A program made the position numbers and the translations under genes. The notes below the pieces were generated by a model, which saw nothing but the letters and a program-made list of their open reading frames with translations, was not told the origin of the DNA and made no database searches. From a virus, in the IMG/VR virus record IMGVR_UViG_3300047564_003671, positions 1 through 44,511 of that record: a stretch of DNA of 44,511 nucleotides. One strand, given 5' to 3'. This document shows, piece by piece, positions 7,705-44,364 of this stretch. Within the stretch, counting starts at the first letter, position 1. Each line of letters begins with the position of its first letter.

Positions 7705-9225
7705 TCACTTACCTTCTAGATTTTCAACTCTTTCATTGAGTTCTTTAATACCTTGCCACAGAACTGCGGTGATATTTGGATAACCAACTGCAAGAGATCC
7801 AGTTGTTTCATTGCGACTTACAAGTTCTGGAAGAACTTTTTGAATATCCTGTGCAATAAATCCAATACTCTTAGATCCCTGTTCTTTCCAATTGTACCTA
7901 ACACCATCAAGTCTCTTGATAATGTCAATTGCATTTTCAATAGGTTGAATATTTTCTTTCAGATGGAAGTCTGAGGTATTGTAAAGAATATTGGAACCAC
8001 CATCCCAATACAGTTCAGAATCTGTATATGGAGTTGTATTAGTTCCTTGTGCAGTAACACCAACCAAATATCTTGCAGTGGCAGTATTTGAGTTTGTGGT
8101 GTTAATTGTGTTTGATGGACCGGCAGGACCTGTTGGGCCCTGAACACCTTGAGGACCTTGAGGACCTGTTGGACCCGTAGGGCCTGTTGGACCTGTAGGA
8201 CCCTGAACACCTTGAGCACCTTGAGGACCTGTTGGACCCTGTACACCTTGAGGTCCAGTAGGACCTGTTGGACCTGTAGGGCCTGTTGGACCTGTAGGAC
8301 CCTGAACACCTTGAGCACCTTGAGGACCTGTTGGACCCTGTACACCTTGAGCACCTTGAGGGCCCTGAACACCTTGAGGGCCAGTAGGACCTGTAGGACC
8401 TTGAACACCTTGAGGACCTGTAGGACCCGTTGGACCTGTGGGGCCTTGAACACCTTGAGGGCCAGTAGGACCTGTAGGACCTGTAGGACCCTGAACACCT
8501 TGAGCACCTTGAGGGCCAGTAGGACCTTGAACACCTTGAGGACCTGTTGGACCCTGAACACCTTGAGGACCTGTAGGACCAACTACAGCAGCATTAGAGA
8601 TCGTAGCTTTCTTAAGTGTACCACCAGAAAGAACAGGAATGTAATCACCAGAAAGAGGTGAAGCTTCTTCGGTTAAATTGGCAACATCAAGGTTTGTGGC
8701 TGTACCAATCAGTTTGGTTGCAGTAATAATACCAACACCCTTAATGTCATTTGTATTGCCATTGATAGTAACAGATCCACCACCAACAGTGAGAATACCA
8801 GTAATTCTTGCATCGCCATTTACAACCAGAGCTGTTAATCCAGCACCAGGAGTTCCAATTGTTGCACCTGCAGAAACAAATGCATGGGTAAAATATCCTT
8901 CTCTCCACTCAGTAGTCGCAGCACCAACTTTAAAGGTTTGATGAACATCAGGGATCAGATCGGAGTTGATCTGAGCATTAACCTTAAGGGTATCCGATGC
9001 AGCATTACCAATCGTAGTAATACCAGTAATTTCAAGGTTAGTGAATGAAACATCACTGATACTTAAGTTGGCGATTGTAGCGACACCAGTTACATTAAGA
9101 TCAGTAACTCCAATACCTGTAGCACCAATGACATGGGCACCACCAATATCTAACCTATCACCGATAGGAAGTTCTTTAATTTGATTTGTTGACGAATCAA
9201 CAATAAGAGGAATTCTATCAGCCAT
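7705..9225 (-). CDS. Collagen-repeat tail fibre with S74 self-cleaving chaperone
   Basis: A 506-aa fibre. Residues 1-215 are a beta-structured shaft ([17 protein letters not shown] repeats), about 215-370 are collagen-like Gly-X-Y triplets ([10 protein letters not shown] units), and about 417-506 form a peptidase S74 intramolecular chaperone ([16 protein letters not shown], then [18 protein letters not shown]). In this family the Ser-Lys dyad (Ser of SDFHLKE) cuts off the C-terminal chaperone after the fibre has trimerised. The fibre lies beside a second fibre-like gene. The DNA of the collagen block is highly repetitive, so its length may vary between isolates by slippage or recombination. 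Confidence 0.85.
8118..8582 (-). repeat. Tandem collagen-triplet coding repeat
   Basis: About 465 bp of 9-nt-based repeats encoding GPTGPQG(V/A)QG. The units differ mainly at third codon positions, and longer blocks of 60-70 bp recur almost unchanged. This is a likely slippage hotspot. Confidence 0.85.
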
Positions 9226-16607: not shown

Positions 16608-16681
16608 TCGGGGCGACACGACTTGAACGTGCGACCTGAAGCTCCCAAAGCCCCTGCTCTACCAAACTGAGCTACGCCCCG
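16608..16681 (-). tRNA. tRNA-Pro (anticodon UGG)
   Basis: A complete cloverleaf on the minus strand: acceptor CGGGGCG/CGCCCCG with C1-G72 as in bacterial tRNA-Pro, D-arm CTCAGTTTGGTAGAG, anticodon loop TTTGGGA (anticodon TGG), T-loop TTCAAGT, and discriminator A73; CCA is not encoded. It reads CCA codons. Its first 10 nt overlap the 3' end of the HNH gene. Confidence 0.95.
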
Positions 16682-17043
16682 TTATAGTGTTCAATTCTGT
16701 GACAGTTAGAACACAGAACCTCACACTTGTTTAATTCTTCCATCACTTTTTTCCAAGACCTATGTCTCGCAATAACACAAGGATTACCTTCTTTATTGTC
16801 GTCCGTGTGATGAAATTCTAAAGCCCTATAATCACTGTATCCACAACGATTGCATTTTAGGGTCTTTTTGTATTCCCTAAACTTGTCCATTCTAGCACCA
16901 CTCTCTTTGAGTTTTTGCTTGGAATAACAAGGAATACACTTGTGTCTGTAATACTGAACTCCCTCAATTATACCCGCACTTGGAAAGTAGGATAAGTCTA
17001 GAGGTTTCTCACAATTACATTCTTTACAAGTTCTCAAATTCAT
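16672..17043 (-). CDS. HNH endonuclease inserted in the tRNA cluster
   Basis: A 123-aa HNH nuclease. An N-terminal zinc pair (CKECNCEKP and CIPCYSKQK) is followed by CNRCGYSDYRALEFHHTDDNKEGN and the terminal CEVLCSNCHRIEH, giving the HNH core and a second zinc site. It would nick or cleave DNA at a recognition sequence, as in homing endonucleases. The ATG at 17041-17043 is preferred over an upstream TTG. It sits between tRNA-Thr and tRNA-Pro and its stop lies inside tRNA-Pro. A late promoter box (17071-17078) is just upstream. Its AT-rich flanks and position suggest a mobile insertion. Confidence 0.85.
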   Translation of the reverse strand: MNLRTCKECNCEKPLDLSYFPSAGIIEGVQYYRHKCIPCYSKQKLKESGARMDKFREYKKTLKCNRCGYSDYRALEFHHTDDNKEGNPCVIARHRSWKKVMEELNKCEVLCSNCHRIEHYNGA

Positions 17044-17046
17044 ATT

Positions 17047-17069
17047 GGGAAACAAATATGTATTCCCAA
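17047..17069 (-). repeat. Inverted repeat upstream of the HNH gene
   Basis: TGGGAA and TTTCCCA face each other around an AT-rich centre, just upstream of the HNH ATG and downstream of its late promoter. It is a possible translation-blocking hairpin. Confidence 0.4.
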
Positions 17070-25761: not shown

Positions 25762-27255
25762 TTATACCGCAAACATACTTTCATAACCAGTGTTGACCAG
25801 TCTAGGTTCAATTGATGCAACATCATCCTGTTGTCCAAAAGCCGACACTGGTTTTGGTCTGTTTAATTCTCTTTGAACTCTAGCATCAATAACAATTGGA
25901 GCTCTCATTGTTGGACCAATACTTGCAATTGATGCAGATGATGGTGTTACTGGTGCAGCTGCCCGATTTAGTTCTGGTGCCTTTGGAGGTTCGGTTGCAG
26001 GACCAGCTCCTGGTGCCTTTGGAGGCGCAACAGGTTTAGGTTCAAGTGTTGGATATTTTTTCTGTCTTCTCTGTAAAACTGGTGCAGCAGCTTCTGCCTT
26101 TGTAATTACACCATCATTATTTGCGTCAAGACCTCTATTTTGTTGATATCCTTGTTTAGCCACAGAGGCAGATACATATTGACCGAATATACCACCACCA
26201 TCTTTAGTAAAGAGTGCTGCATCCATGTCAGCTCCCTGAGCAGCAGGGAGGAGAACACTCATGTAAACATCATCAAGACTTGCACCTTGAAGACCTTTGT
26301 TCTTCAAATATTTTTCAACATATTTCAACTGTTCAAGTCGGGTCATACCCTTCAAGTCTTCAACAGTTGTTCCAAGTCCTCGTGCAGTTGAAGGTATGAA
26401 CTGAAGAAGTCCAGTAGCAAGACTATCAGGATTTTGGATTGAAGGACTAAAAGTTCCTCCAGTTTCAAAGTCCATAACAGCTAACAAATCAAGAGGGCTC
26501 ATGCCAAGATTTTTGGCTATCTTATTAACTTCCTCAATAAACGACTTGTCCTTAAAGATATCTCCTTTATATCTTGTTGGATCAATAGGAGTTGTATCAA
26601 TTGGTTGTTTTGTTGCTTCCTTGAAGGCATCAATAATACCACCCATGAATGCAGTCAAAGATGCAGTGATCAAAGCCTGAACCGATGACTGTGTGGCACC
26701 TACTGCGGCAGAAACACCAGGAATGGCTTGCATCGTTCTCTTGAACGTTGCTTCTCTTCTTCTATCAGCTCTTCTTTGAGATCTTAACTTGTCTCTTAAA
26801 GTAAGATCCTGTTGTTTATCTTCAATTACTTGATCTCTATATTTCTTCTCTATAGATGCACTACTCGCAAGTGCAAGTTGAATATTTGCAATGTTGCGAT
26901 TTATTCTTTCAATCTCTAGTATGATGTTACCAAGACCACGAACAACCTGACCTCTTGGTGCATCAATAATTTCTGGAACTTCAGTTTGTTGTGGTACAAA
27001 AGTGCTTGTGCTTTGTACTAATGGTTCTGGAATAAGAATGTTTGGTGCATCATCACCCTGGTAAGGATATCCATACTCCTCTGCACCAAAGAATGATAAT
27101 GCTCTTGATCTTCTCTCTTCTTCACTTAACTGAATTAACTCTGTAGAACTAGGTTGAGATTTGCCAAAGAAAGACCCAACAAGACTGCCTGGATCTGGAG
27201 ATCCACCAGTTGTTGACATTAACTTTGATAAGATCGACCCTAGTCCTAATGACAT
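25762..27255 (-). CDS. Tail protein with lytic transglycosylase (SLT) and EF-hand
   Basis: A 497-aa protein. Residues 105-175 are a basic coiled coil, about 180-215 a hydrophobic segment (AIPGVSAAVGATQSSVQALI), and 245-345 a soluble lytic transglycosylase domain with catalytic Glu264 in DFETGG and the GLLQFIPSTARGLG motif. DANNDGVITKAE (377-388) is an EF-hand calcium loop. It would cleave peptidoglycan beta-1,4 bonds during DNA injection, replacing the lysozyme absent from gp5. It lies directly after the gp26/gp51 chaperone pair, the usual place of a tape measure protein. The C-terminus is Pro/Ala-rich. Confidence 0.8.
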   Translation of the reverse strand: MSLGLGSILSKLMSTTGGSPDPGSLVGSFFGKSQPSSTELIQLSEEERRSRALSFFGAEEYGYPYQGDDAPNILIPEPLVQSTSTFVPQQTEVPEIIDAPRGQVVRGLGNIILEIERINRNIANIQLALASSASIEKKYRDQVIEDKQQDLTLRDKLRSQRRADRRREATFKRTMQAIPGVSAAVGATQSSVQALITASLTAFMGGIIDAFKEATKQPIDTTPIDPTRYKGDIFKDKSFIEEVNKIAKNLGMSPLDLLAVMDFETGGTFSPSIQNPDSLATGLLQFIPSTARGLGTTVEDLKGMTRLEQLKYVEKYLKNKGLQGASLDDVYMSVLLPAAQGADMDAALFTKDGGGIFGQYVSASVAKQGYQQNRGLDANNDGVITKAEAAAPVLQRRQKKYPTLEPKPVAPPKAPGAGPATEPPKAPELNRAAAPVTPSSASIASIGPTMRAPIVIDARVQRELNRPKPVSAFGQQDDVASIEPRLVNTGYESMFAV

Positions 27256-27437
27256 TAACCTAAACCGTTATCCTGTTGATGTTTGAGTTTCTCAGCGTCA
27301 AGATAGTTCCTCAACAGGGAAACGTAAATATCACGTTCCCACGGCATCATATTTTCAATCTCTGTCAAAGAGTATTTATGGTACTGCATCAACGAAAAGT
27401 TGAGTTGATAGTATGACTCCGCAGTGATGTGAGCCAT
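27255..27437 (-). CDS. gp51: gp51-like tail/hub assembly chaperone
   Basis: A 60-aa protein: MAHITAESYYQLNFSLMQYHKYSLTEIENMMPWERDIYVSLLRN. The helical Tyr/Leu-rich pattern and MPWERDIY motif resemble short T4 gp51-like and GpE-type chaperones that act on tape-measure and hub proteins. It can start at ATG 27437 (2 nt after the gp26 stop, TGA-GT-ATG) or be produced as a gp26 fusion by -1 frameshifting at 27446-27452, because its frame is open through the slippery site. It immediately precedes the transglycosylase protein. Function is inferred. Confidence 0.6.
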   Translation of the reverse strand: MAHITAESYYQLNFSLMQYHKYSLTEIENMMPWERDIYVSLLRNYLDAEKLKHQQDNGLG

Positions 27438-27456
27438 ACTCACCCGAAAAAACTTG
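27429..27456 (-). promoter_or_regulatory. Candidate programmed -1 ribosomal frameshift site
   Basis: In the gp26 frame the codons are AGT TTT TTC GGG TGA, so the heptamer T TTT TTC (27452-27446) fits X XXY YYZ. Slipping back one base continues as CGG GTG AGT ATG into the gp51-like ORF. A short stem, GTGAG/CTCAC (27443-27429), follows 2 nt later and could stimulate slippage. Confidence 0.55.
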
Positions 27457-28153
27457 AAAGTCCCTCCAAAGTCACTTCATTCTCAACACCAGTATTAGGA
27501 TTAGTAACAGTGATGGTGTGTGAAAGTTTTGGCATTGTCTCAAAGAACTTCTCAACTTCTTTGAACTGTACTGAATTGAACTGTTCAATGAAGTTTACTA
27601 GTTCTTCTTTTGTACAGTCTTTCGCTTCCCAAGCCTCATCTTCACTAAAAACAATGTCAATACAAGAAGCAACAACTTCAAAAGTACTATCAACATCTGC
27701 ACTGAAACTAAAGTTTTCGTTCACAAATTGTTCCAATGATGGATACTTCATTCTTACGGTGTAAGTATCATCAAGTTTGATATCAGTACTGTGTTTCTTA
27801 TCTTTCTTGACTTGGATCTCGTCAATATACACAGTCACATTAACTTCCGTTTGACCGTCATCTGGGCATCGAACAATCAAGTCTACACTCTCACCAACAG
27901 ACTTTGCACGGATGTTGAGGAACAGATACTCAATATCAAAGGTAGGAAGTTCATCTACCTTGATACCTCTAGTTAAAATGCAATTCTTCAGGACATCCTT
28001 AATAGCTCTAGTAATATCTTTTGGATCTCCACTCTCAATTGCAAGAATGAGGATTTTTTCTTCTTTTACTAGAAATGGTCTGTATTTAACTTTCTTTCCG
28101 TTCGATGGTAAAGTCAGTTCATACGAAGGTGTAACAATTGTAGGTAATGGCAT
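27440..28153 (-). CDS. gp26: gp26-type baseplate hub assembly protein
   Basis: A 237-aa protein of the T4 baseplate hub (gp26) family: MPLPTIVTPSYELTLPSNGK, VKYRPFLVKEEKILILAIES, GDPKDITRAIKDVLKNCI, and DIEYLFLNIRAKSVGE. T4 gp26 (208 aa) is needed for hub assembly. The 3' end contains T TTT TTC at 27446-27452, two codons before the TGA, a canonical -1 slippery heptamer. A late promoter box is 18 nt upstream. A 299-aa fusion product would be made by frameshifting. Confidence 0.8.
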   Translation of the reverse strand: MPLPTIVTPSYELTLPSNGKKVKYRPFLVKEEKILILAIESGDPKDITRAIKDVLKNCILTRGIKVDELPTFDIEYLFLNIRAKSVGESVDLIVRCPDDGQTEVNVTVYIDEIQVKKDKKHSTDIKLDDTYTVRMKYPSLEQFVNENFSFSADVDSTFEVVASCIDIVFSEDEAWEAKDCTKEELVNFIEQFNSVQFKEVEKFFETMPKLSHTITVTNPNTGVENEVTLEGLSSFFG

Positions 28154-36309: not shown

Positions 36310-36819
36310 TCAATAACAATGTTTATAAGCGGGTGACGCTCTTCTCTTTATTTTTGAAACAAGAGAAGGAGCGATGTTGTATTTAGAAGCCAGTGTAACA
36401 CCTTTTTCATCACTATTCAAAATGTCTTTGACTTGATCATCGGTTAATTTTCGTTTAGTTTTGCGCATTCTTTGAATGGCTTCAGGACTACAACAAACTC
36501 TACCCTTTAATGCTTCACTTCTTCTTTTTTTATGTTCTTCAGTTTGTTTTCTACCTAACATCGATTGTCTTTTCTTTTCTTGTATTTCTGGAGTATTTGG
36601 AGTATTACTACCACCTATTTTTGATTTTAAGTATTGTATTTGTTCTTTTCCTATTTGTCCAGAAAGACATTTCCAAGCAAGATAATCTCTTTCATCTTTT
36701 TTTCTAGTCCATTCGGCATAATGCCACATAGCATGTTGTGTTGTGGACAATTCTACTAGATTTTCTTTAAGATTAGTTCCACCTTCATACTTTGGTATTA
36801 TGTGATGTTTATGTTTCAT
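36310..36819 (-). CDS. HNH homing endonuclease with NUMOD3-like and helix-turn-helix parts
   Basis: A 169-aa HNH nuclease: HKHHIIPKYEGGTNLKENLVELSTTQHAMWHYAEW gives the active-site His pair and the Asn/His. A NUMOD3-like segment follows (SMLGRKQTEEHKKRRSEALKG), and a helix-turn-helix at the end (DILNSDEKGVTLASKYNIAPSLVSKIKRR). Such modular HNH proteins are homing endonucleases. It sits between thyX and the 82-aa gene, AT-richer than both. Its late promoter lies in the palindrome just upstream (36826-36855). Insertion between operon genes is inferred. Confidence 0.85.
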   Translation of the reverse strand: MKHKHHIIPKYEGGTNLKENLVELSTTQHAMWHYAEWTRKKDERDYLAWKCLSGQIGKEQIQYLKSKIGGSNTPNTPEIQEKKRQSMLGRKQTEEHKKRRSEALKGRVCCSPEAIQRMRKTKRKLTDDQVKDILNSDEKGVTLASKYNIAPSLVSKIKRRASPAYKHCY

Positions 36820-38292: not shown

Positions 38293-38802
38293 TCATAACA
38301 TCTCAACCAGTTTGTAATGTTTATGGTGATCTCTTTCACCAGTGTAAGTTTTATGGAGGTTTTGTTTAGTAAGACTATGTTTCTTACAGAAATTAGTGAG
38401 ATTTTCTATTTCAAGTAAAAAACCCTCTGGAGTTTTCACTAACCACCTTTTAGAATTATCTGGAATTTTAAAAACATTATTCCTAATGGCATCATCGATA
38501 TTATCTTTAATAGTTCCCCAAGCAAGATTACTTAGTTGATTATTATCTTTATCATCATCAAGATGTCTAACAACTTCGAAGTTATTTGGGTTTGGTATAA
38601 AAGCTAAAGCTAATAATCGATGAAGAGATGTATGTTTTCTTTTTCCAGATATATGTTGGAGAGAATAACAAGTGTATCCTCTTCTATGTTTTACTCCACT
38701 AATGAATTCTTTTTTCTTTAGAGAGAAAACTTTTCCATTTGAATGGATTTCATATCCAGGAAACTCTTCAAGAATTTTTTTAGAGACCATCTCCATCATC
38801 AT
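38293..38802 (-). CDS. HNH homing endonuclease (NUMOD4/HNH_3 type)
   Basis: A 169-aa protein at most. The N-terminal NUMOD4-like motif is EFPGYEIHSNGKVFSLKK, and the HNH_3 core is LHRLLALAFIPNPNNFEVVRHLDDDKDNNQLSNLAWGT. The C-terminus carries a helix-turn-helix-like part (LTNFCKKHSLTKQNLHKTYTG). Possible starts are ATG 38802, 38799, 38796 or 38790; 38790 (MVSKKILEEFPGYE) is most family-like. It overlaps the 73-aa gene upstream by up to 23 nt and the next gene by ATGA. A late box (38826-38833) lies inside the upstream gene. Recent insertion is likely. Confidence 0.85.
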   Translation of the reverse strand: MMMEMVSKKILEEFPGYEIHSNGKVFSLKKKEFISGVKHRRGYTCYSLQHISGKRKHTSLHRLLALAFIPNPNNFEVVRHLDDDKDNNQLSNLAWGTIKDNIDDAIRNNVFKIPDNSKRWLVKTPEGFLLEIENLTNFCKKHSLTKQNLHKTYTGERDHHKHYKLVEML

Positions 38803-42404: not shown

Positions 42405-43466
42405 TTAGAGAGCATTGCCACGAGGCATAATTTCCTCTGGAAACTGGAAATTTTCGTGAGGTTGATCCACTGTAGCCATCCATACTCTCAAGCCTTCATT
42501 CAAAAGCTGATTTTTTGTATAGAACGTTTCAAATTCTGGATCCTCTGCTGCTCTAATCTCTTGTGATACAAAATCGTAAGCTCTAAGATTAAGTGCAAGA
42601 CCAATAATACCGATGCTACTGGTCCAAAGGCCCATAACAGGAACAAACAACATAAAGAAGTGTAACCAACGCTTATTGCTGAATGCAATACCGAAAATCT
42701 GCGACCAAAAACGGTTCGCTGTAACCATGGAATATGTTTCCTCTTCTTGAGTTGGTTCAAAAGCTTTGAACGTATTCGCTTGATCACTGTCTTCAAAGAG
42801 GGTGTTCTCAACTGTTGCTCCATGGATCGCACAAAGTAATGCTCCTCCCAGTATACCAGCAACTCCCATCATGTGAAAGGGGTTGAGTGTCCAGTTGTGG
42901 AAACCTTGTAGGAAAAGTAAGAACCTAAAGATCGCTGCAACGCCAAACGATGGCGCAAAGAACCAACTGGACTGTCCGAGAGGGTACATGAGAAAAACAG
43001 ACACAAAGACAGCAATCGGACCAGAAAAGGCGATAGCATTGTACGGTCTAATCCCTACTAAACGTGCGATTTCAAATTGACGCAACATGAAACCTATAAG
43101 ACTGAAGGCTCCGTGGAGCGCCACAAAAGTCCATAGTCCCCCAAGTTGGAACCAGCGGACGATATCTCCCTGAGCCTCAGGGCCCCAGAGAAGAAGAAGA
43201 GAATGACCCATACTATCTGCTGGAGTACTAACTGCCGCAGTAAGAAAGTTTGCACCCTCAAGATAACTGGATGCAAGGCCATGAGTGTACCAACTCGTAA
43301 CGAAAGTTGTCCCAGTAAGCCAACCACCAAGAGCAAGATAAGCTGTGGGAAAAAGAAGTAATCCAGACCAACCAACAAAAACGAAACGATCTCTCTTAAG
43401 CCAGTCGTCAAGGACATCGAACCAACCTCGTTGTGAAATGGGCGGGGAAAGTGTTGAAGAAGTCAT
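42405..43466 (-). CDS. psbD: Photosystem II D2 protein
   Basis: A full-length 353-aa D2 protein with five membrane helices. Key segments are [41 protein letters not shown] with the His that ligates P680 chlorophyll and the non-heme iron, and [18 protein letters not shown]. The C-terminus is [13 protein letters not shown]2 pairs with D1 in the PSII core and turns over under light. The phage copy keeps photosynthesis going during infection. A strong AGGAGG ribosome site is 6 nt before the ATG. Early and late promoter boxes overlap upstream. Confidence 0.98.
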
Positions 43467-43884: not shown

Positions 43885-44003
43885 CCCCAATAAATTACTC
43901 CAAGAGTGAAGAAAAGGAATATAAGAACTGTGAATACCATTGTGCCTACACCAAACCAGATAACCCACTTAGGCATGGGTTCGTGTTGAGGATTATGAGA
44001 CAT
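43881..44003 (-). CDS. Single-pass membrane peptide, 40 aa
   Basis: A 40-aa ORF: MSHNPQHEPMPKWVIWFGVG, TMVFTVLIFLFFTLGVIYWG, one transmembrane helix with a short soluble N-terminus. The ATG lies in the last 11 nt of the HNH gene, so the coding regions overlap. It is linked by ATGA to the 46-aa gene. It may associate with the thylakoid or plasma membrane, given that it lies next to psbA and psbD. Confidence 0.65.
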   Translation of the reverse strand: MSHNPQHEPMPKWVIWFGVGTMVFTVLIFLFFTLGVIYWG

Positions 44004-44364
44004 TAAGGTAAACAATCATTTTATGAAGAGTATCTATATTATCTCCAACTAAACCCAGTGCAGTGTTGCAGTTATTGCAAAGAACACCTCTTATCTTATT
44101 TGTAGAGTGACAATGATCGATACACTTCTTGGTTAGTTCCACATCACATATCTGGCAGTTCTCATTTTTCATCAAGTCATTATATTGGTCCTCCGTGAGT
44201 TTAAACTTTCTACGCATAAACTCATGGGGTTTATAATATTTTTTACGATTGTCGGTGGAACATTTTTTGCATTTTGGTTGCAATCCAACACTACCAGAAG
44301 CATAAGTTCTCTTATGAAAGGAACTTTCTGGTAAAGATTGATTACACCTTGAACATATTTTCAT
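43993..44364 (-). CDS. Endonuclease VII-type HNH nuclease downstream of psbA
   Basis: A 123-aa protein. An N-terminal zinc ribbon (CSRCNQSLPESSFHKR, CKKCSTDNRKKYY) is followed by an endonuclease VII-like core: KLTEDQYNDLMKNENCQICD, CIDHCHSTNKIRGVLCNNCN. CxxC, DHCH and CNNCN give the zinc and His-Me active site, and NTALGLVGDNIDTL is the family end. Endonuclease VII resolves branched DNA, but small free-standing versions act as homing nucleases. It lies between psbA and the psbD group and has its own late box (44390-44397). Confidence 0.85.
   Translation of the reverse strand: MKICSRCNQSLPESSFHKRTYASGSVGLQPKCKKCSTDNRKKYYKPHEFMRRKFKLTEDQYNDLMKNENCQICDVELTKKCIDHCHSTNKIRGVLCNNCNTALGLVGDNIDTLHKMIVYLNVS

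Follow-up and report, generated by a model that had tools for sequence, protein, structure and literature searches.

Slippery heptamer and flanking elements at the gp26/gp51 junction of T4-related phages point to a programmed −1 frameshift

Introduction

Phage lambda makes the short and long forms of a tail assembly chaperone (TAC), gpG and gpGT, by a programmed −1 frameshift at the slippery site G GGA AAG. PMC3004832 lists T4 gp26 and gp51 as chaperones of hub assembly, with gp51 not part of the final particle. Here, we describe the junction between a gp26-like gene and a gp51-like reading frame on the minus strand of IMG/VR virus record IMGVR_UViG_3300047564_003671, the whole of which (44,511 nt) is referred to as the window, and compare it with related loci; the comparison makes it very probable that the two frames are joined by a programmed −1 frameshift of the lambda gpG/gpGT type, yielding a short/long chaperone pair.

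Several described systems and one long-standing observation bear on this locus. In Escherichia coli dnaX, a 5-nt spacer separates the frameshift site from an 11-bp hairpin downstream (PMC8861025), and Shine–Dalgarno (SD) sequences stimulate −1 frameshifting from a distance of 9–14 nt (PMC5009743). Sullivan et al. (2010) reported that cyanophage gp51 is without its first ~200 residues (PMC3037559). Going by its title, a paper by Vladimirov, Gautam and Davidson (2022; cited in PMC10885494) identifies tail assembly chaperones in T4-like phages, and a passage of PMC12846349 credits these authors with slippery poly-T sites in the TAC-N genes of such phages. A system of this kind is thus already published, and probably for this gene pair too. 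A sequence-only reading of the window had known of no such frameshift in T4-like gp26/gp51; by the passage in PMC12846349, T4-like chaperones have been assigned, apparently with poly-T sites. In the literature examined, which covers Vladimirov et al. (2022) by title and citation, we found no mention of the SD element, of a covarying stem at 5 nt or of an extension to Pelagibacter, Otagovirus, Menderavirus and Ackermannviridae members.

The gp26/gp51 junction

The gp26-like gene (27440–28153) encodes 237 aa and belongs to PF12322 (T4_baseplate), scoring 252.5 bits against a curated cut-off of 24.5 bits (E = 4.5e-75); it also matches phrog_150 (E = 3.3e-81). PF12322 is present as a single copy in the record, and tblastn located one place per record across 719 phage records. 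Read on the minus strand, as are all junction features given here, the gene ends in ACT TTG GAG GGA CTT TCA AGT TTT TTC GGG TGA (protein C-terminus ...TLEGLSSFFG). This places T TTT TTC, at 27452 down to 27446, in the X XXY YYZ register for −1 slippage, one sense codon ahead of the TGA stop (27440–27442) that closes the 0 frame. The −1 frame is open from stop to stop (27476–27255), and reading gp26 through TTC and then one base back gives a conceptual fusion of 299 aa (...GLSSFFRVSMAHITAESYYQLNF...); both the register and the fusion are exactly as the sequence-only reading had described them. The extension (27258–27446) is a gp51-like domain matching phrog_634, “baseplate hub assembly catalyst” (E = 2.1e-25), and phrog_150 is one profile that spans gp26 plus the end of gp51, with its positions 242–277 lying in the gp51-like part. 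The predicted products are therefore a short form (TAC-N) and a long form (TAC-NC) with a common N-terminal domain.

In the mechanism we propose, a ribosome translating gp26 would reach T TTT TTC while a GGAGG element 10 nt behind it pairs with 16S rRNA and the mRNA channel is blocked by a 10–11-bp stem 5 nt ahead. On some passages the two tRNA-Phe would each slip back by one base (TTT/TTC to TTT/TTT). Most ribosomes would stop one codon on and release the 237-aa gp26, and those that had slipped would continue to the 299-aa gp26–gp51 fusion. If the lambda gpG/gpGT pair is a guide, the tape measure may be coated by the short form and the tail tube protein recruited by the less abundant long form, with both departing before the virion is complete. 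The slippage itself, its rate and the roles of the two products are what we infer; the heptamer, its register, the SD spacing, the covarying stem, the constraint on the −1 frame and the homology to T4 gp26 and gp51 can be read from the sequences and are set out below.

Conservation of the slippery heptamer

IMG/VR was scanned with gp26 queries from the window, S-RIM12, P-HM2, HTVC008M and ValKK3, and named phages were added; scans of viral contigs with T4 gp26, HTVC008M and ValKK3 contributed few extra loci. The resulting set holds 266 loci with a readable gp26 end and 108 representatives at 80% protein identity. When the junctions were compared across this set, as the sequence-only reading had proposed, 263 of the 266 loci proved to carry TTTTTT(C/A/T) in register (last base C in 230, A in 22 and T in 11), starting 7–13 nt ahead of the gp26 stop, with a constant −1 relation between the two frames. 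The three exceptions are the distant Vibrio phages D495 and YC and one locus, L265, in which the gp26 frame is broken. The internal stop of L265 stands against 99% identity to HTVC008M and is probably a sequencing error or the mark of a decayed copy.

All 108 representatives retain the six T (T6), through synonymous as well as amino-acid changes. The codon preceding the heptamer is AGT, TCT, GAT, AAT or GCT (Ser, Asp, Asn or Ala), and its third base is always T, compared with 34–80% T-ending codons for these amino acids elsewhere; where the second Phe of the slip site is replaced by Leu, the codon is always TTA and the T run is kept. An in-register T6 is found at only 16 of 24,479 other gp26 codons. 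Phe-Phe or Phe-Leu dipeptides elsewhere in gp26 are encoded in slippery form in 16 of 358 cases, as against 108/108 at the slip site, and an internal control from the same genes and phages, the Phe-Phe of the FFETM motif, is slippery in 3/51 as against 51/51. The heptamer is conserved beyond the constraint on the protein.

Flanking elements

Upstream of the heptamer lies the SD-like GGAGG (27463–27467), a candidate 5′ stimulator at a distance of 10 nt. At exactly this spacing, GGAGG is found in 33 and GAGG in 30 of the 108 representatives. Within 30 nt GGAGG is present in 34/108, where redrawing synonymous codons gives an expected 6.9 and a maximum of 14 in 200 draws.

Downstream, a 5-nt spacer (GGGTG, 27441–27445), which takes in the T and G of the gp26 stop codon TGA and is equally long in clades A, B and C, separates the heptamer from a candidate stimulatory stem identified by folding and covariation (5′ arm AGTATGGCTC, 27431–27440; 3′ arm GAGTCATACT, 27410–27419). 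Three clades carry stems of unlike sequence—AGTATGGCTCA/TGAGTCATACT, GCCCTC/GAGGGC and GGGCTCTC/GAGAGCCT—that all begin 5 nt past the heptamer. Owing to the differing stem sequences, RNAalifold run over whole clades returned no consensus structure for A, C and D, and named structures were counted instead. Their covariation scores were reached by 0/500, 1/500 and 0/500 shuffles in the three clades, and slid partners pair far less; since coding sequence runs through the stems and the same sequences had served to name the structures, these counts are supportive and do not amount to a probability. The 51-nt fold of the window has −15.8 kcal/mol (z −3.73), and, relative to dinucleotide shuffles, fold energy is lowest in the 40 nt directly past the heptamer (mean z −1.75, n = 108; −2.75 in the clade of the window). 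A structure at about 5–9 nt is present in the window and in clades A and B, and in part in clade C, where only some members form the full stem.

Within clade C (L229–L262), phages with TTTTTTA tend toward a strong stem of the GGGCTCTC/GAGAGCC type and those with TTTTTTC toward weaker ones, as if heptamer and stem compensated each other. A short stem 2 nt past the heptamer (GTGAG/CTCAC), which the sequence-only reading had picked out, was set aside: it is not the conserved structure, which is longer and has the canonical 5-nt spacing.

The −1 frame and alternatives to frameshifting

In all loci of sufficient length the −1 frame closes after 57–69 codons, and in nearly all the slip site is followed at a constant spacing of 10 residues by a YY motif. 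The position of the gp26 stop shifts (−7, −10, −13), with the −1 register and the YY spacing staying in place. In 48 of 106 representatives the −1 frame contains no ATG, GTG or TTG on the way from the slip site to this conserved motif, and in 57 of 106 it contains no ATG there. In clades C and D no start codon precedes residues that are fixed in the protein with their third base free; in clade D the codons right after the slip site encode Ala, Leu and His (21/21 each). From the slip site onward the −1 frame is open and constrained as protein. Relatives lacking the heptamer, other frame relations or a gp51 always made from its own ATG, which the sequence-only reading had named as arguments against itself, are not the pattern seen across these loci.

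These data bear directly on stop/start translational coupling, in which a free gp51 would be made from an ATG just past the gp26 stop, or from an overlapping GTG, and no fusion would arise. Such an ATG, the usual gp51 annotation start, is present in the window (27435–27437) and is a possible independent start there; the same codon occurs in 27/32 clade A representatives and is absent from clades B, C and D. GenBank records treat gp51 as a separate gene, and the heptamer-less Vibrio phages D495 (L093:1640–1700) and YC (L095:1680–1740), which keep the −1 register, have a TAATG stop/start overlap. Coupling is nonetheless very unlikely as the general explanation: many representatives have no start codon at all, the constraint in clades C and D begins upstream of any start, and the GGAGG, at 25 nt from the ATG, is too distant to serve initiation. 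Coupling also leaves the T6 conservation, the SD spacing and the stem unexplained, and the T4 counterpart of gp51 is one continuous chain over the junction (see below). The GenBank starts are themselves open to doubt: in S-RIM12 (L083:1762), syn9 (L084:1771), P-HM2 (L085:1789) and HTVC008M (L086:1753), gp51 begins 50–90 nt downstream of the gp26 stop. These late starts remove the conserved HxxLxxYYxxNF part. In a number of cyanophage records such starts look like misannotations stemming from an unrecognised frameshift.

Transcriptional slippage, by which RNA polymerase would add a U on the T6 and the edited mRNA would be translated normally into the fusion, draws on the homopolymer run with a stem behind it, and an extra U would yield the same frame. 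It is highly improbable, since the run is short (six T, seven at most in all loci) compared with the nine A or T of the bacterial cases described in PMC5009743, and an SD-like element at 10 nt has the ribosome, not polymerase, as its target. There is next to no chance that a Phe-Phe conserved at the protein level acquired these codons without recoding: the dipeptide is kept in most members and in four of the seven T4-type gp26 proteins, but the latter encode it as TTC TTT, Leu replacements always use TTA, and the FFETM control, with codon choice fixed only at the slip site, already contradicts this account.

Five points weigh against the programmed frameshift or limit its reach. The covariation counts are not independent events. 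The clade D stem is weak or placed later, and the stem is unclear in some outgroups. The in-frame ATG shortly past the slip site means that free gp51 could be produced in this phage, and the TAATG overlaps of D495 and YC imply that coupling can replace the fusion. Finally, T4 gp29, the tape measure, matches neither the SLT protein encoded next (25762–27255) nor the 594-aa protein that follows; the SLT protein, taken for a tape measure in the sequence-only reading, has partial matches to hub and tail PHROGs and is no more than a candidate for that role.

Structure and genomic context

A confident AlphaFold2 model of gp26 (pLDDT 89.1, the predicted local distance difference test score) has the HK97 TAC (gp13, 2ob9) at rank 2 among its PDB matches, below significance (E = 0.95, probability 0.30), and a PDB sequence search with the gp26 profile gave no match. 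Elsewhere, a psbD-like gene for the photosystem II D2 protein (Photo_RC, 42405–43466) marks the window, which is of ocean origin, as cyanophage. A tail fibre-like protein (7705–9225) combines collagen repeats (GPTGPQG) with a C-terminal Peptidase_S74 chaperone domain. An HNH/NUMOD4 homing-endonuclease-like gene (38293–38802) and an Endonuclease VII-like gene (43993–44364) are also present, together with HNH-like open reading frames at 16672–17055 and 36310–36819 that have no Pfam match.

Evolution and comparison with known systems

Both T4 proteins belong to PF12322 (gp26, E = 8.8e-64; gp51, E = 3.9e-52). Against a profile built from 103 conceptual fusions, T4 gp26 matches up to position 236, adjoining the slip site, and T4 gp51 matches positions 23–281 with no gap at the junction. 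None of the seven T4-type gp26 genes carries a slippery heptamer. In an unrooted tree, one branch (99/96) separates the T4-type gp26 and gp51 sequences from all 19 single-gene lineages. D495 and YC group with nACB2, which has T TTT TTT, and for this reason their loss of the heptamer looks secondary. The −1 register and the TAATG overlap of these two phages suggest a switch from frameshift to reinitiation.

Frameshift-type members are found inside and outside Straboviridae and the duplicated type only inside, in what is a small sample; on this taxonomic ground the duplication appears derived. On balance we favour, with some reserve, a scenario in which the dnaX-like cassette (SD at 10 nt, T6, stem at 5 nt) stems from the ancestral mode of making the chaperone pair in a broad T4-related group—Kyanoviridae, the Pelagibacter myophage, Vibrio ValKK3- and Aeromonas PX29-type Straboviridae, pf16, Otagovirus, Menderavirus, ACP17 and one Ackermannviridae member—and was replaced once by duplication in the T4-type phages and by a stop/start overlap in a Vibrio lineage. 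A frameshift would also account for the short cyanophage gp51 that has been a puzzle since 2010, the missing N-terminus being gp26. The abundant marine T4-like phages would have a tail-assembly switch open to testing, and frameshift, duplication and coupling could be cleanly compared, in evolutionary terms, as ways of setting a two-protein ratio.

Set beside the described systems, the locus combines features of several. As with lambda gpG/gpGT, neither form would be expected in virions; it differs from lambda in its protein family, here PF12322 of the T4 baseplate type, in its slippery site, T TTT TTC against G GGA AAG, and in having a dnaX-like SD element and stem. With T4 it shares homologous proteins, gp26 corresponding to the short form and gp51, colinear with the fusion over the junction, to the long form, but T4 encodes them in two divergently transcribed genes and lacks the heptamer. 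The geometry is that of E. coli dnaX, with an SD-like element ~10 nt upstream, a homopolymeric heptamer, a 5-nt spacer and an 11-bp hairpin; dnaX is an unrelated gene with a heptamer of A instead of U, and its frameshift shortens the product where the one proposed here would lengthen it. The TAC locus of Vandenendeviridae and Andersonviridae (PMC12846349) likewise has an invariant poly-T (GTTTTT) where TAC-N ends, and its −1 frame stays open into TAC-NC; it belongs to a different phage lineage, and the likeness noted here is one of locus layout.
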